Shown here: positions 6,297-24,200 of the stretch, piece by piece | Layout of the letters: each line of letters starts with the position of its first letter | Numbering within the stretch: the first letter of the stretch is position 1 | DNA from: a virus | Length of the DNA stretch: 24,200 bases | IMG/VR virus record: IMGVR_UViG_3300028883_000138 | Location: 1-24,200 of that record | Reading direction: 5' to 3' (one strand) | Position numbers and translations under genes: made by a program | The notes under the pieces: generated by a model | The model's database searches: none | Told to the model about the DNA's origin: nothing | The model's input: the letters and a program-made list of their open reading frames with translations, nothing else

Positions 6297-7319
6297 TTAA
6301 AAATAATTTGCAGTAGCGTTTCTAATCATCATTTGTATGGAATACGCTGCTTCTGTGTTATACATTCCTGTATAAGAAAGTTCTTGTGTAAGAGTTTCAG
6401 CTCCTCCCACTTCTGGTTGATTAGAATTAAGATAAGCTGCCGGTATTCTTATAATCATCGCATAAGTAGTACCGCCCGCTGTAATAGTAACACCTGTGTC
6501 TGCTGTTATTCTAATAGCAGTCATAGTGTTATCAATAAACCTATCGTATGCTGTAGTTGTGTCAAATCTCATACCTACTGTTAGAGCTACATCTCTCATA
6601 ACAGGAGGTAAGACGGAAATATTCCGACTTCCTAGACTTCTTTGGTCTCCATCTATGTTATTATTGAGTGAAAGCTCAAAATTAGTAACATATTCAGCAC
6701 TTACGTTTGTTATAGAATCACCTGTTTCAAATGCAATGTCAACAAAGTTTATTGGCAGTACATCCGAAAAACTCACTGTAGGTATAGAACTCGAAATACT
6801 ACACCCACTTCCGATTATCTCACAAGTAAAACCAACAGGGCTTCCTATCTCACCGCTTAAAGTAAGATTGTTAACTCTACAACCTGCGTGATTCCAAACG
6901 TTAGTATCTCCTCTTCTTACTGATATAGAAAGACCTTTTACATCGCTTGAAGTGTTAGTTCCAGCATTACTTTCCATGTCTCCTGTATTGAACGTATGTT
7001 CTACAGCGCCAGCAGCAAGAGTATTAGCGCTAACGGTTCCACCCATAGCCTGTTTTACAATAAGCGCAAAAGCATCTTCGGCCACATTAACCGGCGCTTC
7101 CAAAGAACCACTTACAGTTTCATTCATTATCATTCTTTTTTTGTAATCTCTGGTCGTATTAACCGCAGGAACCTTTAATTCCTCTCGTTCCTGTTTTAGA
7201 GATTCACTATTAAACTCTATAAAAGCGGTTGCTGTAACAAAAGTCCCTAAAGTAGTTTCTTCTGCTATCCCCACCGCGCTTTGGTATCCCATCTTAGGGA
7301 CTGCATTTCCAACAGCCAT
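6297..7319 (-). CDS. Major tail tube protein
   Basis: A 340-aa protein upstream of the tail chaperones, where siphoviruses encode the tube subunit. It begins MAVGNAVPKMGYQSAVGIAE and continues with TLGTFVTATAFIEF, the 'g.q....vg.E.t.Gt.......l' opening common to siphoviral tube proteins. Then NETVSGSLEAPVNVAED matches the 'v.G.i..e....' beta strand of that fold. The remainder is beta-rich with VNNLTLSGEIGSPVGFTCEI, as in tube proteins, and an Ig-like or extra insertion may account for the large size. The start has GGAGGAA upstream. No sheath gene lies nearby, so the tail is non-contractile. Confidence is high from context plus sequence character. Confidence 0.85.
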   Translation of the reverse strand: MAVGNAVPKMGYQSAVGIAEETTLGTFVTATAFIEFNSESLKQEREELKVPAVNTTRDYKKRMIMNETVSGSLEAPVNVAEDAFALIVKQAMGGTVSANTLAAGAVEHTFNTGDMESNAGTNTSSDVKGLSISVRRGDTNVWNHAGCRVNNLTLSGEIGSPVGFTCEIIGSGCSISSSIPTVSFSDVLPINFVDIAFETGDSITNVSAEYVTNFELSLNNNIDGDQRSLGSRNISVLPPVMRDVALTVGMRFDTTTAYDRFIDNTMTAIRITADTGVTITAGGTTYAMIIRIPAAYLNSNQPEVGGAETLTQELSYTGMYNTEAAYSIQMMIRNATANYF

Positions 7320-7322
7320 TTT

Positions 7323-7529
7323 TTATTCCTCCATTTCCTGTATTATACTTCGCCTTTGTCTCACTTCCTCAAAACAAGGGTTATTTCCATTTTTCCGTTT
7401 CAGTAAATTTATTTTCTCTCCTTCTGTGACCTCAAGAGTATTATCCCCACTTGGTAAAGAAAGCCCATTTGGGTACTTTGCCAATTTAGGAATATATATT
7501 GGCCTGTGATCGATATATTTAAGTTTCAT
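7323..7529 (-). CDS. Small hypothetical protein between the Maf-like gene and the tail tube
   Basis: A 68-aa protein beginning MKLKYIDHRPIYIPKLA. The start overlaps the upstream stop as ATGA and has GGAGG five bases before it. The sequence TLEVTEGEKINLLKRKNG and then NPCFEEV resembles short proteins found in many phage head-tail regions with a 'v...ea..LlkrknG...F..v' pattern. I infer a small virion or assembly protein, but do not know its role. There is no membrane segment or enzymatic motif, and the C-terminus is charged (RQRRSIIQEMEE). Confidence 0.55.
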   Translation of the reverse strand: MKLKYIDHRPIYIPKLAKYPNGLSLPSGDNTLEVTEGEKINLLKRKNGNNPCFEEVRQRRSIIQEMEE

Positions 7530-8548
7530 ACTGCCTCCAAAAATTCTAAAACTGGTTTAGGTATATGATTAACAATGACTTCCGCTACATTATTGTTTTG
7601 TAAAGTCTGTTGTAATAATTCCTGTGAACTAGGCCCCGCTGGTATATGTATTGTTTCCATAAAAGCCTTCATAATGTCCTGCTTTTCCTGTTCAGTAGCT
7701 TTTTCAAATTTTGAATTCTTTAATTTCTTTTTTAAGTCCGCTCTAGGCGTTGCTAATATGCCCTGACCTGAACAATTATATATAGGTCTACCTCTCACTA
7801 CTGAATTTAGAAAGTCGCTTAACCACCTAGCGCTGAATAATAAGTTTTGACTGGTATTCGCATAATCTCCATTAAAATCAATTGTAGCAGCGTGTTTCAT
7901 CCAATACCTTTTGTCTGAATCAGTAGCCCCATGCGAATAGTAAGGTTCATTTTCTTTCCAGCAAAAATCATAGCCTACTAAATACATTTCCCTGCATCCT
8001 AAGACCTGTGTACTAAACACTACCACAGTATTTCCTACGTTAGAACTAGCTGGTATAACCTCTCTACATCCTGAGATTTCGCTGAATATTTCCTCTGATT
8101 GAATATTATCTTTATTCACATAGAAGTAGACAGGCCCCTTCCAATTATACGGCCATTCCGGATTCGCGTTTACATTAGAAAGGAGTATAATCCCGTCTGT
8201 TTGATCTTTCCACGGTTCCATCCATTTTTCATAACTAATCCCGGCGTCTGCTATAAATACATAATGAGGCTTTACTCCTGCATCTAAGAGGTAACCCAGA
8301 CACTTATCTACACATGCTATCATAACATTATCTTTATACTGTGCTATTGTATCAATGTTTTTAAAAAACGAGTTACCAAACGCTACACAAAGTAGATTTC
8401 TTCCAACACATTGATACAGTAGATCCTTATATAATCTACCGTTCTTTTTGTATAACTCCCCATTCTTTTTAGCGTTACTCCGCCAAATGTCTTCCCATTG
8501 GCCAAAAGCTGCTTTGCTTTGTTTTAAAACTTCATCTGAACTTAACAT
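7526..8548 (-). CDS. Maf/DUF115 family (MptE-like) glycosyltransferase-like protein
   Basis: A 340-aa protein of the DUF115/MptE-like family, which includes the Maf proteins that transfer nonulosonic acids to Ser/Thr of flagellin. A nucleotide-sugar-type Rossmann core is visible: LLCVAFGNSFFKNID (about 52-66; family pattern 'G.GPSL...i'), MIACVDKCLGYLLDAGVKPH (76-95) and YVFIADAGISYEKW (96-109). Later come VGNTVVVFSTQVLGCREMYL and GYDFCWKE, matching 'g.s.....a..lg...i.l.G.D.a'. The family GPSL appears here as GNSF. The start has AAGGAGATATT before the ATG. It lies between tail terminator and tube genes, overlapping the next gene, so it is co-expressed with virion proteins. I infer a role in glycosylating a virion protein, but substrate and donor are unknown. 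Confidence 0.75.
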   Translation of the reverse strand: MLSSDEVLKQSKAAFGQWEDIWRSNAKKNGELYKKNGRLYKDLLYQCVGRNLLCVAFGNSFFKNIDTIAQYKDNVMIACVDKCLGYLLDAGVKPHYVFIADAGISYEKWMEPWKDQTDGIILLSNVNANPEWPYNWKGPVYFYVNKDNIQSEEIFSEISGCREVIPASSNVGNTVVVFSTQVLGCREMYLVGYDFCWKENEPYYSHGATDSDKRYWMKHAATIDFNGDYANTSQNLLFSARWLSDFLNSVVRGRPIYNCSGQGILATPRADLKKKLKNSKFEKATEQEKQDIMKAFMETIHIPAGPSSQELLQQTLQNNNVAEVIVNHIPKPVLEFLEAV

Positions 8549-14094: not shown

Positions 14095-16059
14095 CTACGT
14101 TAATAATCCTAAACTTTGTAATTTTGTTTCTAGTTCATCAACTCGAGTTTGTAAATTTGCTATAACTGAAAGGACCGTATTTCCTTCATCTTTTGTAACA
14201 AAGCCAAATCCGCCTGCTGATAAATCCTGTATCGCATAATCCGGTGTTCCCGGAGCTGTATAAGTAATTGTTGTTAATTGTGCCGTTAGTGCTGTTGGTT
14301 TTGCTACTGGAGCAGTATTAAAAAATGCCATTCCTGTACCGTCTATTCTAATCCGTGGTGTAGCACTATCGCAAATCTGCAATTCACCTGTGTTACTGTC
14401 TATAAGGCTGTTAGTAGCATTGTGATAAAGTTCTAAATCGTTCCCCGCGCCTATAAGTATTTTATGGTTATCCTGTAAAACTTTGAAGTCCGTAGCGTCG
14501 AATAGAAAATCTAACGCCCCGAACCCTATGCCAAAAGAACTGTCATTTGTATTTGTTACACTTTCGCCGAACGTTATTATATTGTCCCCTGCGTTTGAGC
14601 TTATTACAGCCTGCCCCATTGCAATTGAGGCTTTTCCAAGTGCCTGAGTGTTACCCCATCCTATAGCAACCGCACCGTAATCACCTGCGACATCTCCGGC
14701 CTGAATTGTACCGCCATCAGGGTAACCCATAGCAACCGAACCCGAACCTATAGAAATAATTTCTCCATATGCAGCGTAACCATGTGCAAACCCTCCTGCG
14801 CCGGAAGCTGTTATTCTTGCATCGTTACCGGCCCCGAATCCACCATAGCAAGCACCCTGAGCGAAAGCCCCAGCACCTGAAGCCCATATTTTACCCTCAG
14901 CGTTACCGCCTCCATTGGCTGCTCCCTGTGCAAAAGAGCCCTGACCGTTGCTGAGAATTGTACCATCACAAACTCCAGCACCGCCCATAAAACCGCCTGC
15001 AGCATATCCTTGAGCGAAACTTGAATATCCGCTTGATGTAATTATACTTAAACCGCTTGGAGCAGCACCAGTGTATCCGTGAGCAAAAGAACCTGTACTT
15101 GTCGCTGATATTGCCTGAGTTGTATTATTAATGGCTCTGCCTAAAGCAACCGCACCCTCTCCACTTGCGACAACGTTATACCCGATTGCCGTTGCTCCCA
15201 GACCGGAACTTGACTTAGAGTGATACCCCATTGCAATACTGTAAGACGCCGTCGCCTGAACACTGGCACCCATTGCAATAGACCCATATCCGGAAGCCGT
15301 TGGACTATTCCCAGTCGCAAAACAATATTGCCCGCTTGCTGTTGCTCCCGATCCAAAACTGACATCTCCTGCCTGTTGTGATTGACAGGCTGTTCCTATC
15401 GATACAGAATACAGTCCGCTTGCCGTACTTGATCCCCATGCCAGCGAATAATTACCGCTTGCCGTTGCACCATAGCCCGCAAGAGAGGCCGAGGCCCCGA
15501 CTAATGTTAAAGCCTCTTTAAGAGTACCACCGTCATTAACTTTAAATACAATATCTTTATTCGAGTTCGAGTTCAAAAACCAGAAATTATCATTATCTAA
15601 ATATATCTGCCCTGCTAATGTTCCAACAATTGTAAAAGCGTCTGCCCTGACATCGCCTGATACCGCTCCAACAACTTCGAAAGTGTTGCCATTAAACGTC
15701 ATGTATCCAGAAGGCCCGCCTGTTGGATATTCATCTTTAATTGCTCCTGTGGCGTCTTTATCGCCTATCAAGACTCTTGTAGCTGTATAACCGCCATTTA
15801 ATAAATTAGCTGCCAAAGTTCCACTTGTTAGTGTAACATTATTACTAGATATAGTCCAATCACCTGTTAAGTCAACTGATCCATCTTTTTTGAGAAAATC
15901 ACTTAAGGAATTTAATTTTGCGTTTACGTCATGCCCGCCCGCGCCTAAATTTGTAATATTATAACCCTGCCAGTTTTTGTCTGTGTCTATTACAAGACTG
16001 GAAAGTAAACCACTAAAAGGCAGTTGATCTATTTCTGAACCCTTAGTCTGAATTATCAC
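14095..16059 (-). CDS. Fibre protein with YadA-head-like repeats
   Basis: A 654-aa protein encoded directly after the portal, with ATGA overlap at 16059-16056. The N-terminus (about 30-110) has WQGYNITNLGAGG and SLSDFLKKDGSVDLTGDWTI, typical of phage fibre shaft starts. Residues about 190-510 contain many degenerate repeats of the form 'a.a.G..S.A.G....A.g..S.A.G' (SYSIAMGYHSKSSSGLGATA, GEGAVALGRA, GSFAHGYTG, GSVAMGYPDG, KASIAMGQAV), the left-handed beta-roll of trimeric YadA-type adhesin heads. The C-terminus (VIANLQTRVDELETKLQSLG) is a short coiled coil that may trimerise it. The repeat DNA is clearly richer in GC than its neighbours, partly because of the Gly/Ala content. Host or environmental surface binding is inferred. 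Being among head genes, it may be a head or neck fibre rather than a tail fibre. Confidence 0.85.
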   Translation of the reverse strand: MIIQTKGSEIDQLPFSGLLSSLVIDTDKNWQGYNITNLGAGGHDVNAKLNSLSDFLKKDGSVDLTGDWTISSNNVTLTSGTLAANLLNGGYTATRVLIGDKDATGAIKDEYPTGGPSGYMTFNGNTFEVVGAVSGDVRADAFTIVGTLAGQIYLDNDNFWFLNSNSNKDIVFKVNDGGTLKEALTLVGASASLAGYGATASGNYSLAWGSSTASGLYSVSIGTACQSQQAGDVSFGSGATASGQYCFATGNSPTASGYGSIAMGASVQATASYSIAMGYHSKSSSGLGATAIGYNVVASGEGAVALGRAINNTTQAISATSTGSFAHGYTGAAPSGLSIITSSGYSSFAQGYAAGGFMGGAGVCDGTILSNGQGSFAQGAANGGGNAEGKIWASGAGAFAQGACYGGFGAGNDARITASGAGGFAHGYAAYGEIISIGSGSVAMGYPDGGTIQAGDVAGDYGAVAIGWGNTQALGKASIAMGQAVISSNAGDNIITFGESVTNTNDSSFGIGFGALDFLFDATDFKVLQDNHKILIGAGNDLELYHNATNSLIDSNTGELQICDSATPRIRIDGTGMAFFNTAPVAKPTALTAQLTTITYTAPGTPDYAIQDLSAGGFGFVTKDEGNTVLSVIANLQTRVDELETKLQSLGLLT

Positions 16060-18341
16060 TTCTTAGGCCTCACTAGTTGTAAACCACCGCCTGTCCTAGG
16101 TTCTGTAGGTGGCATATTACTAAAACTCCCAAATTCTTCATCTTCAAATATAGGAACTATTAAGCTTCTACAGTTAGGGTGTAAAGGCGGTTGAAAATAT
16201 TCTAACTGCTGCGGTAGAAGGATCTTGCCGTCTAGTTGTGTACAAATATCGCTTGTTCTTCCGTCTAATATTGCGGAAAATTGAAATGCGCTAATTTCAC
16301 CCTCTTCTCTAAGCTCTGCAAACTGCTGTGTTCTTGCTTGGTTAAACGCCTTTGCTGTCTCTGTTCTTGTAATCATCTCAATTCGCGAACCGGAAATACC
16401 TAAGTTCCACGGCTTAAGAGCTTCTTCTAAAAGCTCGCTTGTCTGCTGTGTTCCATAGCCCTTTCTTATACCCTCTGCCAAAACTGCCTTAACTTTCTTT
16501 AATATTTCCTCTGATTCTACACCGCTAATTCTAATAGCTTCTTCTTCTATCCACTTGGCTATGTCTTCATTGTCTAAATTAAATTTCTTTCTGTTTACCG
16601 TAGAAGTACCGAAATTATAAGCGTCCTTTATCATATCCTTATAAAGCTTTGTAGTCTGGTTGACGTTCCTAAGCTTAACACTGTTAACTTGTTCTAATTT
16701 CTTCTTCTGTATAATCCGCTTTTTTCTAATGTCGTTCATTACGCCATTTATTATTAGTCTATAGGCCTCGTTTAACAACTGATTATACTTTTCTTGTATC
16801 TCTGCTTCTTTCTTTTCTACTTTGTTAAAATCAACTCTACGTTTTTCAAATACTGTAAGTTCTCTATAATATTTAGAAAACTCTTTTTGCATTTCCTTTT
16901 TGTCTTCTTCTGTCTGGCCGGGAGGCTTGTCATTCTTAGGTTTCTCTTTAGGTGGTTCAGGTTTTGAACTCTTTGGGTTTTCCTTATTGTTAGGCACATT
17001 TTGTGTATTCTCTTCTTGATTACCGTTATTCGCTAATTGATCTTTAAAAGCCTGCTTTTCTTCCTCAATCTTTTCTAATTCTTCTTTGCTTATCTCTGGC
17101 GCATTCACCTTATCTAAGAACCAGTTTATAGATTCGTTAGTAACTGGAATCTTACCTGTCTTAATAGCCTCTGTCCATCTCGTAAGGTCTTTTTCTTTCT
17201 GCTCTTCATCAATAGGCGCAAACCTGAAATGAGCATCAACCTTGTTCCCAAAGTTCCAAAATACTAATTGGTTTACTATATGCCTATTCACAATCCTTTC
17301 TATATCCTGTCTTATAGACCTAATCACAGAATAAAATAAATCAAATTGCTCTTTTCCTAGTGCATAACTTCCTCCGCCTGTCTCGCTTCCGCTTAATCCC
17401 ATAAGGTCAGGAATTAGTAGTTTTCTGGCTATCATTGTGTCATACTTATTTATAGCCTTTTCGTATGCGTCAAATCCATTACCTTTCATCTCTAGGAATT
17501 CTACCATGACTTCATCAGGTATGGTCATTGCAGTTCTTGATTGAATGTTTTTTAATACTTTCAGTATATCATCTTTTATATTTGCTCTTGCTGCTGGAAT
17601 CTTGCCAATCGCAGTTGGCATTGCATATTTCTCTAGTGCAATATTCCAGAATTTTATAATATTGGTCTTACTCCACCAAGCTGTGTATACACCTTTGTTT
17701 ATATCCGACTGACCGTAGAAATTGTCAAACTCTTTTTGGTAGGAATATAGTATGACTTTATCAAGTGGAATCTTTTGATCTTGCCCGCCAGTATATTGAA
17801 CTAATTCTGTAATTGCTCCCTTATCGTCTGTTCTAATTTCCCAACTGTGAGGCGCTCTTGTTAAAAGCTTAGTAAAGACCATTTTAGGCCCTTCCGGAGT
17901 TTCTACAATATCAGCCACTTTCTCAGTTACACTAAATCCATAGTCTAAAGCGGTGAGAATCTCTTTTAATTTATTCTCGAATGTGTCATCTAAATAGACA
18001 TTCAGGCAAGATGTTATAAATTTAACTACATCTTCGTCTTCACACTCTATTTTCCAGCCTGAATTTAGAATAATGTGCTTCTTTAAACTCAAAGCTGCAT
18101 ATACTTGGTCATCCTGCCTTATATCATCATATAGGTCATAATTACCCTTTTGCTGGTAAAGTGCATCTGGATTATACGGTCTGAAGTTATAACCTTCAAA
18201 TAAAGCAGTAGAGGCCCATGAGACCTCTTGCTTAAGTGCTGGCGTGAACTCTTGCACTGCATTTGAATATTCTGTTATTGAGTATTGTTTTGGTTGGCCA
18301 TTTTCGTCTACTACCTGAATTCTTGACATAAACCTATCCAT
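16056..18341 (-). CDS. Portal protein fused to a MuF head-morphogenesis domain
   Basis: A 761-aa chain. Residues about 1-430 are a DUF935/Mu gp29-type portal: YDLYDDIRQDDQVYAALSLK, GWKIECEDEDVVKFITSCL, ALDYGFSVTEKVADIVETPE and GSETGGGSYALGKEQFDLF. Residues about 445-485 are a Pro/Lys/Asn-rich linker. The C-terminal section carries a MuF minor head domain: EMITRTETAKAFNQARTQQF (about 655-675), SAILDGRTSDIC and then LHPNCRSLIVPIF (about 720). In Mu the portal (gp29) and gpF (gp30) are separate genes, so here they make one protein. The portal forms the dodecameric DNA gate, and MuF proteins are internal head proteins. No strong Shine-Dalgarno site precedes the ATG at 18341; a second ATG at 18329 has GGATAGG just before it. 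Confidence 0.9.
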   Translation of the reverse strand: MDRFMSRIQVVDENGQPKQYSITEYSNAVQEFTPALKQEVSWASTALFEGYNFRPYNPDALYQQKGNYDLYDDIRQDDQVYAALSLKKHIILNSGWKIECEDEDVVKFITSCLNVYLDDTFENKLKEILTALDYGFSVTEKVADIVETPEGPKMVFTKLLTRAPHSWEIRTDDKGAITELVQYTGGQDQKIPLDKVILYSYQKEFDNFYGQSDINKGVYTAWWSKTNIIKFWNIALEKYAMPTAIGKIPAARANIKDDILKVLKNIQSRTAMTIPDEVMVEFLEMKGNGFDAYEKAINKYDTMIARKLLIPDLMGLSGSETGGGSYALGKEQFDLFYSVIRSIRQDIERIVNRHIVNQLVFWNFGNKVDAHFRFAPIDEEQKEKDLTRWTEAIKTGKIPVTNESINWFLDKVNAPEISKEELEKIEEEKQAFKDQLANNGNQEENTQNVPNNKENPKSSKPEPPKEKPKNDKPPGQTEEDKKEMQKEFSKYYRELTVFEKRRVDFNKVEKKEAEIQEKYNQLLNEAYRLIINGVMNDIRKKRIIQKKKLEQVNSVKLRNVNQTTKLYKDMIKDAYNFGTSTVNRKKFNLDNEDIAKWIEEEAIRISGVESEEILKKVKAVLAEGIRKGYGTQQTSELLEEALKPWNLGISGSRIEMITRTETAKAFNQARTQQFAELREEGEISAFQFSAILDGRTSDICTQLDGKILLPQQLEYFQPPLHPNCRSLIVPIFEDEEFGSFSNMPPTEPRTGGGLQLVRPKK

Positions 18342-18419: not shown

Positions 18420-18524
18420 TTAAAAACAAAAAACCAAAAATGAGACTGTAAAAAGGCATAGAATTATACATAAAATGCCTATTAAAAAACACACTAAAGC
18501 AAGAATCTGTGTTGGCCCTACCAT
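18420..18524 (-). CDS. 34-aa single-span membrane microprotein overlapping terL end
   Basis: A short gene of 34 codons. The ATG at 18524-18522 lies inside the last codons of the large terminase, and AGGAGAGAGG is five bases upstream, a strong binding site. Translation begins MVGPTQILALVCFLIGILCI and stays hydrophobic to the end (about 28 of 34 residues non-polar), with four Cys and no charged residue. It stops with TAA at 18422-18420, six bases before the -35 box of the portal promoter. It is a likely inner-membrane protein. Location near terminase resembles the lysis gene area in Mu-like phages, so a holin-type role is possible, but a T-rich strand can give such frames by chance. Confidence 0.6.
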   Translation of the reverse strand: MVGPTQILALVCFLIGILCIILCLFTVSFLVFCF

Positions 18525-19735
18525 TCCATCCTCTCTCCTATGTCTCCTACAATATCACTACCACCTGCGTTTTTGTGACAAGCGTAATAAGCCAGAGCTA
18601 AAGCTATTACACAGTCATCATGTAATCCCTCTGGTGCTGAATATCTAATCAACCCACCGGGTGTTTGGTCAAACGTAAATACACTTAACTCATTTAAGAG
18701 TTCTGGTATTTCTGGAAAACTAACTTCCTGTCTTTCCACCGCTATGGCTAAATTCTCTATTAGTTGTCTTTTACTTATATTCGTGAATTTATAACCTTCC
18801 ACTCTTACATGTAAACTAAGATCGTCTAATATGGGATCTCCCAGTCCTGTAGAATCTATTAAAATATAAGCGTCAAATCTAGTACATAAGTTTATTATTC
18901 TTTCTTTCTGTATAGTCCATGAAATATCGTTGAATCTATCCCACGCACATACATGACCGTCTTGGTCTACTATGCATATAACTGTATAGTCTGTACTCTT
19001 AGCTAAGTCAACACCTGCAAAGTATGTTTTCTTAGACAGTCTTTTTTCATCGAAATCACCTTTTATACATTCTCTCACATTTCTAAATACTTCACCACCG
19101 TCATCTATAAATTTAGCCTTATATTCTTGTTCAAATATCTTTTGTGGCAACTTTTGTACTTCCTGCCATTCTTCATTACTAAAATACCTGCTTTCATTAC
19201 TAGAGAACTGAAAAGAAACATAGTCCTTTTCTTCTGAATCCTGCCCTTTACAATATAGCTCGTAAAATAAGTTCTTTCCTTTTGGTGTGCCTATAAATAA
19301 TACAGGCGCTCTAGTAGCTGTAATTGTACCCCTTAGGGCGTACTGGTAAGCGTCTCTTTTAATCATGCCCATTTCATCAATTACCATAAAATCGACCGTT
19401 TCACCTCTAAGCCCTTCTTCTCTGTCCGCACTCTTAAAGTCTATGCTAGAACCATTTGTAAACTCTATTCTTAATTCAGACCTATTTGTTTTAAAAATAG
19501 CTCCCATATCCTGAAGTAGTTCCAAAATACGCCTAAATGCTATCTTTGAATTTTGGTAAGTAGGAGATACCCACCAGTTTATTGATTTTGTCTGTCTTGC
19601 TCTAAGTGCTAGAAGAAATACACCTAAAAAAGTCTTTCCTGATTGTCTACCTGCTGAAACTACTACAAATCTATATGTATCAAAAGCCTCATATACTTCA
19701 AATTGCCATTTTGTAAGAATAATATCATAACTCAT
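18518..19735 (-). CDS. terL: Terminase large subunit
   Basis: A 405-aa DNA-packaging motor. ATPase: Walker A GRQSGKT (29-35), Walker B with the catalytic acid MVIDE (117-121), and the coupling motif GTPKG (149-153). Nuclease (RNase H-like): AGVDLAKSTDYT with Asp243, ILIDSTGLGD with Asp294, and LHDDCVIALALAYY with Asp373/374. Both domains look intact, and the length is a little short for the family (commonly about 400-600). It follows the small subunit with ATGA overlap (19735-19732) and precedes the portal. The C-terminus ends with IGERMEW, inside which a 34-aa membrane protein starts. The protein cuts concatemers and pumps DNA through the portal. Confidence 0.97.
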   Translation of the reverse strand: MSYDIILTKWQFEVYEAFDTYRFVVVSAGRQSGKTFLGVFLLALRARQTKSINWWVSPTYQNSKIAFRRILELLQDMGAIFKTNRSELRIEFTNGSSIDFKSADREEGLRGETVDFMVIDEMGMIKRDAYQYALRGTITATRAPVLFIGTPKGKNLFYELYCKGQDSEEKDYVSFQFSSNESRYFSNEEWQEVQKLPQKIFEQEYKAKFIDDGGEVFRNVRECIKGDFDEKRLSKKTYFAGVDLAKSTDYTVICIVDQDGHVCAWDRFNDISWTIQKERIINLCTRFDAYILIDSTGLGDPILDDLSLHVRVEGYKFTNISKRQLIENLAIAVERQEVSFPEIPELLNELSVFTFDQTPGGLIRYSAPEGLHDDCVIALALAYYACHKNAGGSDIVGDIGERMEW

Positions 19736-20045: not shown

Positions 20046-20150
20046 CTACTTTTTGTCTACTTTTGTTAAACACCAAAATATCCAAGCATATAGTGAGAAA
20101 AAACAGAATATTACAAAACATATTAGTATTAAAGCTATTAGGTCTATCAT
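20046..20150 (-). CDS. 34-aa single-span membrane microprotein
   Basis: A 34-codon gene. Its ATG overlaps the stop of the 50-aa gene as ATGA (20150-20147) and AAGGAG lies seven bases upstream. It begins MIDLIALILICFVIFCFFSL and ends with LTKVDKK, so one transmembrane helix with a positively charged, probably cytoplasmic, C-terminus. Small size, tight coupling to another membrane protein and location just upstream of the terminase genes suggest lysis or membrane function such as holin/antiholin, but no family is recognised. It is of the same length as the microprotein at 18420-18524. Confidence 0.7.
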   Translation of the reverse strand: MIDLIALILICFVIFCFFSLYAWIFWCLTKVDKK

Positions 20151-20299
20151 TTTATAACTCCTTTTAGTAGAGTAGAAATCTGTTTACTGAACACTGCCCA
20201 GACATTAACAAGTGTTAAAATAGTCTGTAGTACTATTAAGGTAATGCCTGTGAATAAACCTATTGTTATTTTAAACACTCTTCTCTTCTTCATACCCAT
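20147..20299 (-). CDS. 50-aa membrane protein upstream of terminase
   Basis: A 50-aa protein with a positively charged N-terminus (MGMKKRRVFK) and one hydrophobic helix (ITIGLFTGITLIVLQTILTL), then a mildly basic tail (SKQISTLLKGVIK). The ATG at 20299 has AAGGAG six bases upstream; the open frame reaches 20332 but without a binding site. It looks like a single-pass inner membrane protein with the N-terminus in the cytoplasm, and the next gene overlaps it as ATGA. In Mu-like phages lysis genes lie just before the terminase genes, so a holin-type role is plausible but not shown. A promoter lies across its start. Confidence 0.68.
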   Translation of the reverse strand: MGMKKRRVFKITIGLFTGITLIVLQTILTLVNVWAVFSKQISTLLKGVIK

Positions 20300-20328
20300 A
20301 ATATACTCCTTTTTTAGTGTTTTGTCAA
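20300..20328 (-). promoter_or_regulatory. Sigma-70-type promoter across the start of the 50-aa membrane gene
   Basis: On the minus strand TTGACA (20328-20323), 17 bases, TATATT (20305-20300). The hexamers and spacing equal those of the portal promoter. The -35 overlaps the TGA of the TPR gene, and the spacer contains the AAGGAG of the 50-aa gene. Transcription would start near 20293, at or beside the second ATG of that gene (MGM...), so the RNA would be leaderless for it and could supply the 34-aa protein and the terminase genes. Confidence 0.6.
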
Positions 20329-20690
20329 GCATCCTTGTAGAATAGACATATCATATTCCAACTCTCTGTAAACCTCTGGGGGTTTATTCTTATAGTCTCT
20401 TTCATATATTCTACTGCTTTCTTTTGATTCTTCTTGTATCTACTCTCTATTAGAGCAAGGAAATAACAACTATCCTCCACGCCCGGTTTCATTTCTATAC
20501 ATTTCTTAAATAGTTCTTCTGCTTTTTTAATATGGTTGGAATAATGCATCTTTTCTGGTGTAGATTCATCCCATTGGAAATACATTTTAGCCAATTGGTT
20601 TATCAGTCTGGAACTATTAGGACACTGTTTTAAGCCTTCCTCCAATATTGCCTTTTGTGCTTCAAAGTTTTTCATGTTGTCCTTATTCAT
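20325..20690 (-). CDS. TPR-repeat protein, in frame with the preceding methyltransferase after one TAA
   Basis: A 121-aa helical protein with about three tetratricopeptide repeats: FEAQKAILEEGLKQCPNSSR, AKMYFQWDE, HIKKAEELFKKCIEMKPGVE and KKAVEYMKETIRINPQ. TPRs mediate protein-protein contacts. The first ATG is at 20690; a second at 20675 has AAGGA upstream. The same frame is open for 27 more codons up to the TAA of the methyltransferase, and this stretch (PQEAYKVFSKFPDAYF) looks like coding sequence that belongs to a further TPR. So this may be the C-terminal half of a methyltransferase-TPR fusion cut by a stop, or a gene with a start I cannot see. Sequencing error is also possible. Confidence 0.65.
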   Translation of the reverse strand: MNKDNMKNFEAQKAILEEGLKQCPNSSRLINQLAKMYFQWDESTPEKMHYSNHIKKAEELFKKCIEMKPGVEDSCYFLALIESRYKKNQKKAVEYMKETIRINPQRFTESWNMICLFYKDA

Positions 20691-20771
20691 AGCATGTAAA
20701 AAATAGGCGTCTGGAAATTTAGAAAATACCTTATATGCTTCTTGTGGCTTATTAACTATAGGATCTACAAG

Positions 20772-21641
20772 TTAAATTGCCTTTTTGTTTGCTTCTAGTA
20801 TCTGCTGCTGAATTTTATAATCTTCTTTGACTATATCCTTTTTTTCTCCCCTTTTACACAGTACCGTATACCCATATAGTGCTTCATCTTCTTTTATTAT
20901 CTCAAACCCTGCATTATTTAGTAAATTATGAAAACTCTGCTTTGAAAATACATTCACATGGTTTAGGTGTAGGTAGTTCTCCCAGTCTCTTAAAAACGAA
21001 CCTGACCATTCCTCTAAAACGTCAAACCAGAGAGGAACAGAAATATATAGTAAAGCATCATCTCTCATAACTGTCTTAATTCTTTCTAATTCTTTGTCCG
21101 GGTGTTGTATATGCTCTAGTACATGGTAATAACTGACAAAATTATATATATATCTAATGTCTATTTCTTGTGTAATTTGAATACCATATTCATGTCTTCC
21201 ATAGTTAGCGAAAGCTTTTGACCATTCAGTGCCGTAATATGTGTCACAATCCTCTATCTTTGTTACTTTTTCATAAGCTCTGTTTTCTCTAAGATCGTTT
21301 AAAAAACTACCCTGTGCGCAACCTACGTCTAGAAAAGGCCCTTCTATTTCTACGTCCTTCAAAAAAGCCCGATGGTATTCGTTTTTCCTGTTACATGTGA
21401 TTATATGGTTGGCCGTCATCACTGGTCTAGCCTGATTATAGCTGGTTTCTAATCTTTTGTCATTCACATAGTCATAAGTACAAAATCCACATTCCTTACA
21501 AATCTTAAATCCTACCGCTTCACCTTCTTCTCTAAGGTCTAAATCATACCAATATTTATGGCTCCTCAAATAATCTAAATCATGCCATTTATTTTCTTTA
21601 CATATCGGACAATTTTCTAACTTTATTATCATATTCAACAC
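20772..21641 (-). CDS. Zinc-ribbon class I SAM-dependent methyltransferase
   Basis: A 289-aa enzyme. The N-terminus has a zinc ribbon: CPIC (Cys11, Cys14) and CKECGFC (Cys48, Cys51). Then a Rossmann methyltransferase: motif I FLDVGCAQGSFL (103-114), an acidic residue at GTEWS (Glu139), and YYHVLEHIQHP (171-181). This pairing of a ribbon and a Methyltransf_23-type domain resembles enzymes acting on sugars or lipids, such as sugar C-methyltransferases; the substrate is not shown. The GTG start at 21641 has AAGGAG seven bases upstream and is preferred over the ATG at 21632; the gene overlaps the 102-aa gene by 44 bases. A TAA follows Ala-Ile, and the same frame continues as a TPR region. Confidence 0.85.
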   Translation of the reverse strand: MLNMIIKLENCPICKENKWHDLDYLRSHKYWYDLDLREEGEAVGFKICKECGFCTYDYVNDKRLETSYNQARPVMTANHIITCNRKNEYHRAFLKDVEIEGPFLDVGCAQGSFLNDLRENRAYEKVTKIEDCDTYYGTEWSKAFANYGRHEYGIQITQEIDIRYIYNFVSYYHVLEHIQHPDKELERIKTVMRDDALLYISVPLWFDVLEEWSGSFLRDWENYLHLNHVNVFSKQSFHNLLNNAGFEIIKEDEALYGYTVLCKRGEKKDIVKEDYKIQQQILEANKKAI

Positions 21642-21906
21642 CGTACATCTCCTTGTAAAATTTTTCTACTGTCTTAGGACAGTTTTTTGTCATCTTGTTC
21701 GCTGCTATATCTGAAAGTATTTTTTGTATATCTTTATCGTCTGAACCCTGTTTTAACCAGAGGGCTACACTAATATCCATTATCTCTTGCTGGCAGTGCT
21801 TTTCTGTTTTCGTCTTGCAGCACTCCTTTAAACACTCTACTAAAAATAAGTCCGCCATATAAGTACTACTGAGAACTATACCAGCACATAAAATTATCGC
21901 TTTCAT
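21598..21906 (-). CDS. Cys-rich protein with hydrophobic N-terminus
   Basis: A 102-aa protein starting MKAIILCAGIVLSSTYMADL, a short hydrophobic start like a signal sequence or membrane anchor. Cys are at 7, 25, 29, 30, 38 and 75, an unusual density. The remainder is helical and basic (MTKNCPKTVEKFYKEMYG). Its start overlaps the previous stop (TAATG) and has AGAGAGG upstream; the end overlaps the methyltransferase by 44 bases. I do not recognise a family. If exported, it could form disulphides in the periplasm or outside; an enzyme role is not indicated. Confidence 0.6.
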   Translation of the reverse strand: MKAIILCAGIVLSSTYMADLFLVECLKECCKTKTEKHCQQEIMDISVALWLKQGSDDKDIQKILSDIAANKMTKNCPKTVEKFYKEMYGVEYDNKVRKLSDM

Positions 21907-22175
21907 TAGTTCGCCCTCTCTTTTATTATTTTTATCATATTTTCATAACTTTGATCAATATACTCTCCTATGCATCTTATGAAATCTTTTTTAAATAACT
22001 TAAAGAACTCTTCGTCTTTACCTGTACTTATAAAATATATAGTAGCCACGTCTATAACACCGCAAAAGCACAGTGTGTATGGATCTATATTGCAATTTCC
22101 TTTTTTATATGCCTTTTCTATATTATTTAAATTCTTCCTTATCGCGTCAAAATGTGATGAACTAAAATCAATCAT
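21906..22175 (-). CDS. Hypothetical helical protein
   Basis: An 89-aa protein that starts MIDFSSSHFDAIRKNLNNIE. The ATG overlaps the aldolase-like gene stop as ATGA and has GAGGAG eight bases upstream. Sequence is mostly helical with Cys at 28, 36, 38 and 68 and a partly hydrophobic centre (LCFCGVIDVATIYFIST) that is not clearly a membrane span. No family is recognised. Tight coupling suggests it works with, or is regulated with, the aldolase-like enzyme or the methyltransferase. Confidence 0.6.
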   Translation of the reverse strand: MIDFSSSHFDAIRKNLNNIEKAYKKGNCNIDPYTLCFCGVIDVATIYFISTGKDEEFFKLFKKDFIRCIGEYIDQSYENMIKIIKERAN

Positions 22176-22885
22176 TTCAATATCTCCTCTAATTCATCTA
22201 CTGACAGCATTTGGAATTGATCCGTTTTACTTTTCCCGTCTATTGTACATTCAAACATAAAATGTTGAACTCCTATCGCCTTAAAAGCCCTATAGGTATC
22301 TCCTATGAAATCCTTATACCCTACACTGTGACTACAATCAACTATTAGTTTATCAAATATATCCGGCCTTTCGTTCTTAATTCTTATCACCCCTTTTAGG
22401 TCTGGACTCCATCTCGAATACTCTAATCTATCAAATGTGTTAATCCCTCTCTCTACAAAAAACACTTCATCCGTACAAGCTGCGTGATTCGTATAAATAT
22501 CGTATAATCCTATAGTTTCATCTACAGTCATCCCAAAATCACGCTTAAAAAGCACCATCCCTGTGACGTGTCTTAAGGCCTCTATCAATCTATAGTTTTG
22601 TGAATTTCTAGCGCCAAACCAAAAATAATATAAGTCCTTCACAAGTTCAATGTGTTCTTTTGTGAATATCTCGCATCCTACCGGTATTATGTTTTCGTTT
22701 ATCTGCTGTAGTACGTTTATCCCAATGTCACCTACTCCGCTATAGTATCGGTCAATCTGAGTTCCACCACCCCACAATTTACACCTGTAAAAGTCTGCTA
22801 TTCCCACAAGTGCTTTTGCAGTGTGTTGGACCATTCTGGTTTCTGAAAAATCATAGTATAAACAAGGGCCTGCAAATATAGCCAT
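22172..22885 (-). CDS. DAHP/KDO8P synthase-family aldolase
   Basis: A 237-aa enzyme-like protein of the family that condenses phosphoenolpyruvate with an aldose phosphate. Visible motifs: FAGPCL (Cys8), CKLWGGG (about 35-41), FGARNSQN (90-97), VLFKRDFG (Lys114, Arg115), VERGINTF (144-151), IVDCSHSVG (His186), MFECTID (Glu212) and KTDQFQML (Asp222). By family knowledge Cys8, His186, Glu212 and Asp222 match the four metal ligands, and the GARN, K-R and ERG motifs match phosphoenolpyruvate binding. The acceptor loop, KPRTSP in DAHP synthase or KANRS in KDO8P synthase, is replaced by GGGTQID, so the acceptor is probably different. There is no N-terminal regulatory domain. The start overlaps the previous stop (TAATG) with AAGGAG. 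It is likely active, but its product is unknown. Confidence 0.8.
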   Translation of the reverse strand: MAIFAGPCLYYDFSETRMVQHTAKALVGIADFYRCKLWGGGTQIDRYYSGVGDIGINVLQQINENIIPVGCEIFTKEHIELVKDLYYFWFGARNSQNYRLIEALRHVTGMVLFKRDFGMTVDETIGLYDIYTNHAACTDEVFFVERGINTFDRLEYSRWSPDLKGVIRIKNERPDIFDKLIVDCSHSVGYKDFIGDTYRAFKAIGVQHFMFECTIDGKSKTDQFQMLSVDELEEILK

Positions 22886-23157
22886 TAGTACACTCCTTTT
22901 CTGAAGTTTATTTTTTTATACCATTCTTCAAATTCTTGTTTATTTCTTTTGTTAATATAGCCTCTTCTCTGTAATTCACCTTGAATTATACTTTCTTTTC
23001 TGGCTATATCTAAAACTTGATCATCTGAAACTCTATTTTTTGCTTCCCATTTTAAATCCATCAAAGTGGTAAAAAGATTCAATAAAGTCTTTGTCCCTAC
23101 TTTATGTACTTGCTCTCGAAATCTTTCTACGTCTACTGTTAAAATATTCTGTGTCAA
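22885..23157 (-). CDS. Hypothetical protein before the aldolase-like gene
   Basis: A 90-aa charged, helical protein, LTQNILTVDVERFREQVHK onward. I choose the TTG at 23157: AGAGGTGG lies seven bases upstream and the start overlaps the upstream stop as TTGA. An ATG at 23181 would give 98 residues but has a weaker site and a larger overlap. No family is recognised. The segment SDDQVLDIARKESIIQGELQ is a helix, and the C-terminus is basic (YKKINFRKGVY). It shares a TAATG junction with the aldolase-like gene. Confidence 0.55.
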   Translation of the reverse strand: MTQNILTVDVERFREQVHKVGTKTLLNLFTTLMDLKWEAKNRVSDDQVLDIARKESIIQGELQRRGYINKRNKQEFEEWYKKINFRKGVY

Positions 23158-23306
23158 AACCTGTCCACCTCTTTTATCCATCCAATTTTTATTTCAATCT
23201 GGTAATTATCCATCATTTTTCTTTTCACTTCTCTTTTCGATTTGGCAACTACATAAATAACACAAATATCATCACCATTATTAAACTTGACCTCGTAAAT
23301 TTTCAT
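23154..23306 (-). CDS. 50-aa small protein, related to the one just before it
   Basis: A 50-codon gene. It starts at the ATG at 23306 inside the end of the previous gene, and stops with TGA at 23156-23154. The protein begins MKIYEVKFNNGDD and contains VIYVVAKSKREVKRKM, then IEIKIGWIKEVDRF. It matches the preceding 53-aa protein in plan (MK-[LI]-Y-[KE]-V, then V.A..[KE]RE, then a final [VI]KE[IV]) and many tiny phage proteins with this beta-alpha-beta layout. Function unknown. It fills what otherwise looks like a 100-base gap. Confidence 0.65.
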   Translation of the reverse strand: MKIYEVKFNNGDDICVIYVVAKSKREVKRKMMDNYQIEIKIGWIKEVDRF

Positions 23307-23442
23307 TTCTGATTTCCTTCACGCAATATATTTCTAAAATTTTTGATCCATCAAAATCTAAATACCTTAAAATTGCATGTTCTCTTTCAGACGCTATAAC
23401 ATAATAATCCCTTCTCAGTGTCACTACCTTATATAGCTTCAT
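23281..23442 (-). CDS. 53-aa small protein, paralogue of the next gene
   Basis: The ATG at 23442 is within the final codons of the glycosyltransferase gene. The frame is open back to 23568, but most of that is the shadow of the glycosyltransferase. The protein is MKLYKVVTLRRDYYVIASER onward, ending CVKEIRNENLRGQV. The plan of a first strand, a YYVIASERE strand-to-helix section, and a final strand with VKEI is shared with the next gene. Function unknown; the Shine-Dalgarno site is weak, so it may be coupled to the gene before it. Confidence 0.55.
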   Translation of the reverse strand: MKLYKVVTLRRDYYVIASEREHAILRYLDFDGSKILEIYCVKEIRNENLRGQV

Positions 23443-24193
23443 TTTTCGGGTGACTTGGATCTTGTGTCTTCTGTCCCTCTCTCCTCCTGTAGTTCCATAA
23501 AGGCTTAGGGATAAAACTTGTCTTATAAACCTTTCGCCATCTATTATAAAATTCCTTTCCTTCCTCAAATCCCGGTGTTAAACCATCTTTATATTTCAAT
23601 TCATTAACACACCACCGGCTCAATAAAGCACAGGCAGGATGCCACATGTTTTCTAAAATTTCCGCTGTTGCTGTCAATGCAGATTTCGTTTCATTATATC
23701 CTGTAAGGACACCGTCGGATTCGTCCAATCTGGCCTGTGTGACGGTTTCGGAAATAAAGTTGGGATGTATAGTATCATCACTGTCAACGCGAACAATAAA
23801 CCGGCCACGACCCAAAACGGTACACTTATTGCTAGAATAAACCAACCCACTATTTTCTTCATTTCTTATCACCTTCACTCTTTTTTGTTGTACTGGACTC
23901 AATTTAGAGTAATATTCCATGATTACATCCATGGAATTGTCTGTAGACCCATCATCTAAAACTATATACTCAAAGTCGTCAAAGTCTTGATTTAAAACAG
24001 ACTCCATGCAGTCTATTATGTAATCGGCTGTATTATAATTGCACGTATAAACCGTGACTTCTGGTAAGTGGTTAATTCTCAATAAATATTTGTGTTTCTT
24101 TAAAAAGTTTATTATGTCCAAAGTTCCCGGATTTGAAAGGCAGCAAAATAGTATTCTAAGTAAAGTTAAGTCTTCCTCATAGTCCATGACCAA
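23429..24193 (-). CDS. Family 2 glycosyltransferase, 5' end possibly outside window
   Basis: A GT-A fold glycosyltransferase of family 2 (254 residues visible). The catalytic domain starts about residue 45: PEVTVYTCNYNTADYIIDCM, the nucleotide-sugar motif VLDDGSTDNS (78-87), RGRFIVRVDSDD with the metal-binding DSDD (137-140), and a later FIPKPLWNYRRREGQKT. It transfers a sugar from a nucleotide donor; acceptor unknown. The frame is open to the right edge (TTG at 24193, ATG at 24187) with no binding site visible in the 13 remaining bases, and the N-terminal 45 residues do not look like the domain start, so the gene may begin outside. Its stop is overlapped by the 53-aa gene. Confidence 0.85.
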   Translation of the reverse strand: MVMDYEEDLTLLRILFCCLSNPGTLDIINFLKKHKYLLRINHLPEVTVYTCNYNTADYIIDCMESVLNQDFDDFEYIVLDDGSTDNSMDVIMEYYSKLSPVQQKRVKVIRNEENSGLVYSSNKCTVLGRGRFIVRVDSDDTIHPNFISETVTQARLDESDGVLTGYNETKSALTATAEILENMWHPACALLSRWCVNELKYKDGLTPGFEEGKEFYNRWRKVYKTSFIPKPLWNYRRREGQKTQDPSHPKNEAI

Positions 24194-24200
24194 TCTATAA

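Follow-up and report, generated by a model that had tools for sequence, protein, structure and literature searches.

A phage protein of the DAHP/KDO8P-synthase fold with an altered acceptor loop, encoded in a cassette predicted to make an activated 3-deoxy sugar acid

The elements of the locus described here are each already known separately: enzymes of the DAHP synthase and KDO8P synthase families, KdsA and NeuA genes in phages, Maf systems that glycosylate flagellin, and glycosylated virions. In flagellin glycosylation with pseudaminic or legionaminic acid, as in Aeromonas caviae, a synthase and a CMP-sugar synthetase are combined with a Maf protein acting on a filament or tube protein, and Aeromonas Maf1 has flagellin as its target and the cytoplasm as its site of action (PMC4065374). 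The nearest published cases are phage KdsA and NeuA genes interpreted as LPS genes: TARA_ERS478052_N000008 carries KdsA and NeuA (PMC5332604), and kdsA has been described as a viral auxiliary metabolic gene (PMC11018836). The available text of these two papers reads such genes as serving the host surface or metabolism, and reports neither a Maf protein, nor a conserved cassette, nor an altered loop. Mycobacteriophage virions can be glycosylated, with glycans that reportedly impair antibody recognition (Freeman et al. 2023, as cited in PMC12691614). The open-access literature searched, which leaves most subscription journals outside, yielded no description of phage nonulosonic acid or NeuB-linked virion glycosylation, of a phage Maf beside a tail tube gene, or of a DAHPS-like clade replacing NeuB. 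To our knowledge, mycobacteriophage virion glycosylation has not been described with ulosonic acids or Maf either.

We analyzed a 24,200-base stretch of an IMG/VR virus record (hereafter the window), which ends as a contig fragment. Its minus strand encodes, in order, a small gene cassette, a terminase, a Mu-type portal protein, a capsid E-type head protein, and a tail module with a Phage_tail_S protein, an MptE-like protein, a tail tube protein, and a tape-measure-like protein. The terminase large subunit (18518-19735, minus strand; PHROG 2, 3.5e-44) lies downstream of the cassette, and the portal gene (Portal_Mu, 3.6e-56) occupies 16056-18341 on the same strand. Between the portal and head genes, 14095-16059 encodes a 654-residue protein with YadA-head-like repeats (2.9e-5, just under the Pfam cut-off). 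PADLOC gave no meaningful match, and a defence-system reading was dropped on that ground.

Family, active site, and acceptor loop of the synthase

The cassette gene at 22172-22885 (minus strand, ATG start; P0001) encodes a protein of 237 residues; the plus strand across the same interval contains many stops. The initial annotation, made from the sequence alone, had placed this protein in the DAHP/KDO8P synthase family, and profile, sequence, and fold comparisons agree with that placement. Pfam DAHP_synth_1 matches residues 2-235 (E = 3.2e-18; 66 bits, above the gathering score of 25.5), the top NCBIfam matches (9.5e-25 and 1.2e-21) are to models of type I-beta DAHP synthases, and the nearest solved structures by sequence are type I-beta DAH7PS. 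An AlphaFold2 model (pLDDT 83.6, pTM 0.86) has as its best Foldseek match the type I-beta DAH7PS 5j6f (E = 8.3e-16, TM 0.83), followed by KDO8PS (1.8e-12); no unrelated TIM-barrel family gave a better match in the profile and fold searches. Judged by profiles and predicted structure, the gene product is a DAHP/KDO8P-synthase-fold protein.

Within this superfamily, the protein is set apart from each described enzyme. It resembles the type I-beta DAHP synthases (PF00793; TIGR01361; PDB 1zco, 1rzm, 5j6f) in its fold, in how long the catalytic barrel is, in its metal ligands, and in most of the residues that bind phosphoenolpyruvate (PEP), but is only 24-30% identical to them, scores far under the curated NCBIfam equivalog and subfamily cut-offs (87.5 against 335 bits and 77 against 268 bits), differs in its acceptor loop and in a lysine at position 36, belongs to a separate clade, and is found outside an aromatic gene context. 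With KdsA (TIGR01362) it has in common the superfamily, the logic of the metal site, and a coupling with a KdsB-like cytidylyltransferase, whereas the KdsA models barely recognize it (0.037; 13 against 314 bits), the K-A-N-R-S loop seen in E. coli KdsA is absent, and a KdsC-type phosphatase was not noticed. The NeuB/NnaB/PseI enzymes are a different sequence family, and their domain model (PF03102) has no match in the window.

Nine distinct phage members were found (the window, G001, G002, G003, G004, G336, G337, G340, and the fragment L204), with G005, a near-identical fragment of G001, counted together with the latter. In a tree of eight phage and 34 cellular sequences, the phage synthases form one clade with 100/100 support, separated from the cellular sequences by a branch so long that their source within the cellular family could not be placed. 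KdsA was removed as an outgroup, its branch of 9.7 making the placement meaningless. A scan of genome contigs for close cellular relatives returned one ordinary homologue (27% identity). When 297 genomes of that homologue's phylum were searched with a profile, nothing scored above 93 bits; the best matches there are apparently ordinary DAHP synthases, and those inspected carry K-P-R-T. On these two results, a cellular origin or near cellular kin was rejected.

Three further sets of matches were kept apart from the clade. The 28% matches in "phage" records of Listeria, Staphylococcus, and Enterococcus are ordinary type I-beta DAHP synthases and probably host DNA, as is a match in L092, which has KPRTSP and host-like neighbors; neither was used. 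A second phage synthase of the DAHPS type, in G021 (L084, 16808-17761), has the loop FRAGTYP where cellular enzymes have KPRTSP, so that the arginine is again absent, and adjoins the same methyltransferase as the cassette. It was left out of the clade count because its branch is long and its grouping with the phage clade was not trusted.

When aligned to cellular enzymes, four residues of the synthase coincide with metal ligands, as had been claimed: Cys8 (codon 22862-22864, all codons on the minus strand), which aligns with the cellular AGPC motif, His186 (22328-22330), Glu212 (22250-22252), and Asp222 (22220-22222). Arg34 (22784-22786), on strand beta2 and aligned with the first residue of the cellular RGGAFKPRTSP, coincides with a PEP-binding residue, as do Arg93, Lys114, and Arg146. 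These eight residues are invariant in all eight aligned phage sequences, as are Lys36 and Gly40-Gly41-Thr42. The conservation of PEP-binding residues suggested at the outset is accordingly borne out for Arg34, Arg93, Lys114, and Arg146, but not for the lysine of K-P-R-T, the one PEP-binding residue that has been lost. Across the eight sequences, at only ~39-58% identity to the window protein, 42 positions never vary, more than chance would leave.

The loop that had been noted as changed is indeed altered, and the change is common to all nine phage members rather than unique to the window phage. The cellular R-G-G-A-F-K-P-R-T-S-P reads R34-C-K36-L-W-G-G-G-T42-Q-I-D in the window synthase, and the phage pattern is R-x-K-x-x-x-G-G-T-x-x, K-P-R-T having become x-G-G-T. 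Gly40-Gly41-Thr42 (22760-22768, minus strand) stand in place of Pro-Arg-Thr, and Lys36 (22778-22780), a glycine in cellular enzymes, is a lysine in the eight aligned phages and in the ninth member too. In the Mtb DAHP synthase, the Arg and Ser of the motif bind at the position of the erythrose 4-phosphate phosphate, and its Lys contacts the PEP-side carboxylate of a reaction-intermediate mimic (PMC7144000). The loss of both the loop Lys and the loop Arg therefore suggests that it is the acceptor, and not PEP, that has changed. By its loop, the protein would be classed as neither an ordinary DAHP synthase nor an ordinary KDO8P synthase, and its acceptor is probably neither erythrose 4-phosphate nor arabinose 5-phosphate. 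The acceptor is possibly unphosphorylated, as with NeuB; alternatively, because position 46 is basic (Arg or Lys) in the aligned phage members, phosphate binding is possible, and this residue may hold the phosphate of the acceptor. The missing loop lysine may have been functionally replaced by Lys36.

The loss of two loop residues is also what might be seen in a catalytically dead or repurposed homologue with another function, for example a structural or regulatory subunit. Nevertheless, neither the metal ligands nor the four PEP residues vary over the divergence given above, and the exchange of this gene for NeuB (see below) is unexpected of a dead protein; we regard such a loss of activity as very unlikely. 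That the protein belongs to the class of metal-dependent ulosonate synthases, with catalysis predicted from the conserved residues, is in our judgement highly likely.

The initial annotation also allowed that the enzyme might alter host metabolism, which found no support. In its most specific form, the gene would be an auxiliary metabolic gene whose product, a genuine DAHP synthase, increases flux through the aromatic pathway of the infected host; the best models are those of type I-beta DAHP synthases, and DAHP synthases have been recorded in phages before (PHROG 5045, which matches the window protein weakly, 4.6e-6). This is made highly improbable by the disappearance of K-P-R-T from 9/9 phage members, by the scores far under the curated cut-offs, by linkage to a cytidylyltransferase and a glycosyltransferase, and by the identity of the gene that substitutes for it in other phages, which is NeuB and not another shikimate gene.

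The cassette and the exchange of synthase types

The glycosyltransferase and methyltransferase genes that had been noted beside the synthase in the window recur in its relatives, where the gene order is radical SAM enzyme, CTP_transf_3::GT2 fusion, in some cases an NAD-epimerase, a protein of ~100 residues, the synthase, and a methyltransferase-TPR protein, with terminase and portal adjoining. In the window, the GT2 glycosyltransferase (23429-24199, minus strand; Glycos_transf_2, 2e-25) is cut by the contig end. Its counterpart in the relatives is the C-terminal half of a fusion with a KdsB-like cytidylyltransferase; the full fusion matches CTP_transf_3 (3.8e-14 and 9e-11), and KdsB models match its N-terminal domain at 1.8e-8 in G001 and 3.6e-11 in G004, and more weakly in G002 and G003. 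The window has no CTP_transf_3 match; its contig ends within the fusion gene, so the cytidylyltransferase domain lies beyond it, and the residues at the start of the open GT2 frame (YRLVMDYEEDLTLLRILF...) resemble the matching stretch of the relatives' fusion. The radical SAM (SPASM) gene precedes CTP::GT2 at L003 5514-6431, L004 2080-3009, and equivalent loci. A single NCBIfam model, spiro-SPASM, covers the cytidylyltransferase part with the start of its profile and the radical SAM gene with profile positions 233-404, a hint that these two functions are fused in a cellular protein.

Directly upstream of the synthase is a gene for a 98-residue protein (22885-23181, minus strand), which has no match in Pfam or PHROG. 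The synthase start codon overlaps its stop codon by one base (the ATG of a TAATG junction), and the synthase overlaps the next gene by four bases, an arrangement consistent with translational coupling. Homologues of the 98-residue protein occupy the same position in a phage with a DAHPS-like synthase (G340, 6.5e-11) and in one with NeuB (G332, 5.7e-5); kept with both synthase types, it is possibly an accessory factor of the synthase or of the cytidylyltransferase.

On the other side of the synthase, the window encodes a SAM methyltransferase (20772-21641, minus strand; Methyltransf_23, 6.1e-19) and a TPR part (20325-20690, minus strand; TPR_8, 7.5e-8). A homologue of this methyltransferase is found beside the synthase or the cytidylyltransferase in nearly all cassettes examined. 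In the relatives, methyltransferase and TPR form a single protein of ~434-462 residues, whereas in the window a frame check found one in-frame TAA (20772-20774) parting the two; a real split, a mutation, and a sequencing error are all possible. Two small genes (21598-21906 and 21906-22175) lie between synthase and methyltransferase in the window, without convincing family matches, and are absent from the other cassettes compared. A DNA adenine methylase-like protein in G004 (L012, 8892-9773) has, judged by eye, low-complexity LEQ/LER repeats in its middle.

The strongest evidence on the function of the synthase gene is the exchange of two synthase families within one cassette. In the sister phages G020, G023, and G332, NeuB stands in place of the DAHPS-like synthase, together with CTP_transf_3, a methyltransferase, and Maf. 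The order in G332 is CTP::GT2, small protein, NeuB, methyltransferase; its NeuB is thus located between the ~100-residue protein and the methyltransferase, the position of the synthase in the window. NeuB is also found in the cassette of G334/G331, fragments that end short of Maf, and G015 encodes NeuB, GT2, a PseF-like CTP_transf_3, and Maf in a different arrangement, after the tail genes. The NeuB model matches at 3e-73 (G020), 1.4e-58 (G015), and 7e-16 (G023). These phage NeuB proteins are short (240-293 residues; L079 15733-16530, L081 3467-4348, L082 9281-10045, and G332 20076-20798) and stop before the cellular NeuB model reaches its C-terminal part.

The KdsB-like fusion in the relatives, the exchange with NeuB, and a Maf-type gene beside the tail tube gene (see below) strengthen the earlier suggestion of a 3-deoxy sugar acid as the product. 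The synthase would work like an enzyme of a NeuB- or KdsA-type pathway, yet its loop would place it outside DAHP synthases and KdsA. Activation of the product to a CMP-sugar is likely, as is presumably also the case for the product of NeuB in the sister phages.

The Maf-type protein and the predicted pathway

The MptE-like gene of the tail module (7526-8548, minus strand) encodes a Maf-type (DUF115/MptE-like) glycosyltransferase by its match to PF01973 (3.4e-20; 72.9 against 34.6 bits) and weakly matches the NCBIfam model of PseD, a flagellin modification protein (1.9e-6). A sequence search of solved structures returned no match for it, and a fold search was used for that reason. Its model is moderate (pLDDT 77); the best Foldseek match is Maf 5mu5 (1.7e-10), followed by the archaeal HPPK 8sd5 (6.5e-6) and then mammalian sialyltransferases (8.8e-4 and 9.9e-4). 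The predicted fold is nearer to Maf than to archaeal HPPK, although archaeal pterin kinases share it. The phage protein is short, with about 340 residues compared to 632 in the solved Maf, and it differs from the flagellin system in being phage-encoded, in being accompanied by a DAHPS-type synthase, and in its predicted target, a virion protein instead of flagellin.

Capsid and tail tube genes flank the Maf homologue in all 29 loci found, and the tube gene comes immediately after it (6297-7319, minus strand, in the window; Phage_tube_2, 4.4e-31). Every contig that bears a DAHPS-like or other cassette and reaches the tail genes encodes it. Of the 14 Maf-bearing contigs that are 20 kb or longer, 12 encode a PEP-condensing ulosonate synthase, and the other two start near or past the cassette position, while none of seven portal-related contigs without Maf (16-45 kb) encodes a synthase, NeuB, or CTP_transf_3. 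The corresponding Fisher p of 3e-4 is descriptive: these phages share ancestry and many of the contigs are incomplete, which means that the counts are not independent; absence of Maf from short contigs is likewise weak evidence. G340, which has the synthase and CTP::GT2 and no Maf, was kept outside the count, as its contig breaks off within the portal gene.

We predict that these genes together form a pathway. The synthase would catalyze the metal-dependent condensation of PEP with an aldose to a 3-deoxy-2-ulosonic acid, and the KdsB-like domain fused to the cassette GT2 would convert this to a CMP-sugar. The Maf-type transferase of the tail module would then act in the cytoplasm and attach the sugar to a protein of the virion, for which the neighboring tail tube is the likeliest candidate; GT2, the methyltransferase, the epimerase, and the radical SAM enzyme could tailor the sugar or extend the glycan. 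The phage might gain a receptor decoy, antigenic masking, or particle stability. We hold the pathway as a whole, a phage-made CMP-ulosonate placed on a virion protein by Maf, to be somewhat more probable than its negation, and the odds that a virion protein is the target to be about even or slightly better. The tail tube as the specific acceptor is a guess from gene adjacency. More tentative, falling somewhat short of even, is the complete version, in which an ulosonic acid from a new acceptor is made by a DAHPS-derived synthase interchangeable with NeuB, activated with CMP, and used by Maf for O-glycosylation of the phage's own tail tube; in that version, a family of tailed phages would supply a sialic-acid-like virion decoration wholly from its own genes. 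Against the pathway, no phosphatase was noticed, and a sugar phosphate as acceptor would require one. Also against it, G011 has the cytidylyltransferase and methyltransferase with no synthase in view, and G006 encodes Maf with neither synthase nor cytidylyltransferase, although both contigs start near the cassette.

The cassette and Maf could instead be independent glycosylation systems, Maf taking a CMP-nonulosonate of the host and the cassette making another sugar. The two occupy separate gene clusters, and Maf occurs without cassette genes in several fragments and in G006. The Maf-only contigs, however, are short or start at or after the terminase, so that the cassette position is not covered, and contigs spanning both clusters have Maf with a synthase or cytidylyltransferase even where the synthase types have been exchanged. 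Independence of the two is, in our view, unlikely.

A larger though still minor share of probability belongs to a role of the CMP-ulosonate at the host surface, altering LPS or capsule, for instance to exclude other phages, with Maf as an unrelated protein of tail assembly or modification. A marine phage with NeuA, KdsA, Gmd, WcaG, ManC, and WaaG has been read as a maker of LPS or capsule for superinfection exclusion (PMC5332604), and the GT2 domain of the cassette is similar to glycosyltransferases of polysaccharide synthesis, among them TuaG and EpsE. Inspection of the cassettes, short of a systematic search, nevertheless brought no flippase, polymerase, or membrane glycosyltransferase to notice. 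The cassette is also probably expressed late, because it shares its strand with the adjoining terminase and structural genes, and a protein of the protein-transferase fold, Maf, accompanies it wherever the contig reaches the tail genes.

If the preferred reading, CMP-ulosonate transfer to a virion protein by Maf, is correct, flagellin-style nonulosonate glycosylation would have been taken over by phages for the decoration of their virions, and a DAHP-synthase scaffold would have been re-tooled for the job of NeuB. The cassette would then present a testable case of non-orthologous replacement, and the synthase would be a naturally occurring catalyst that yields ulosonic acids from other aldoses. 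It would also offer a way into the role of phage sugar coats, whether in receptor mimicry, evasion of immune systems or protists, or stability.
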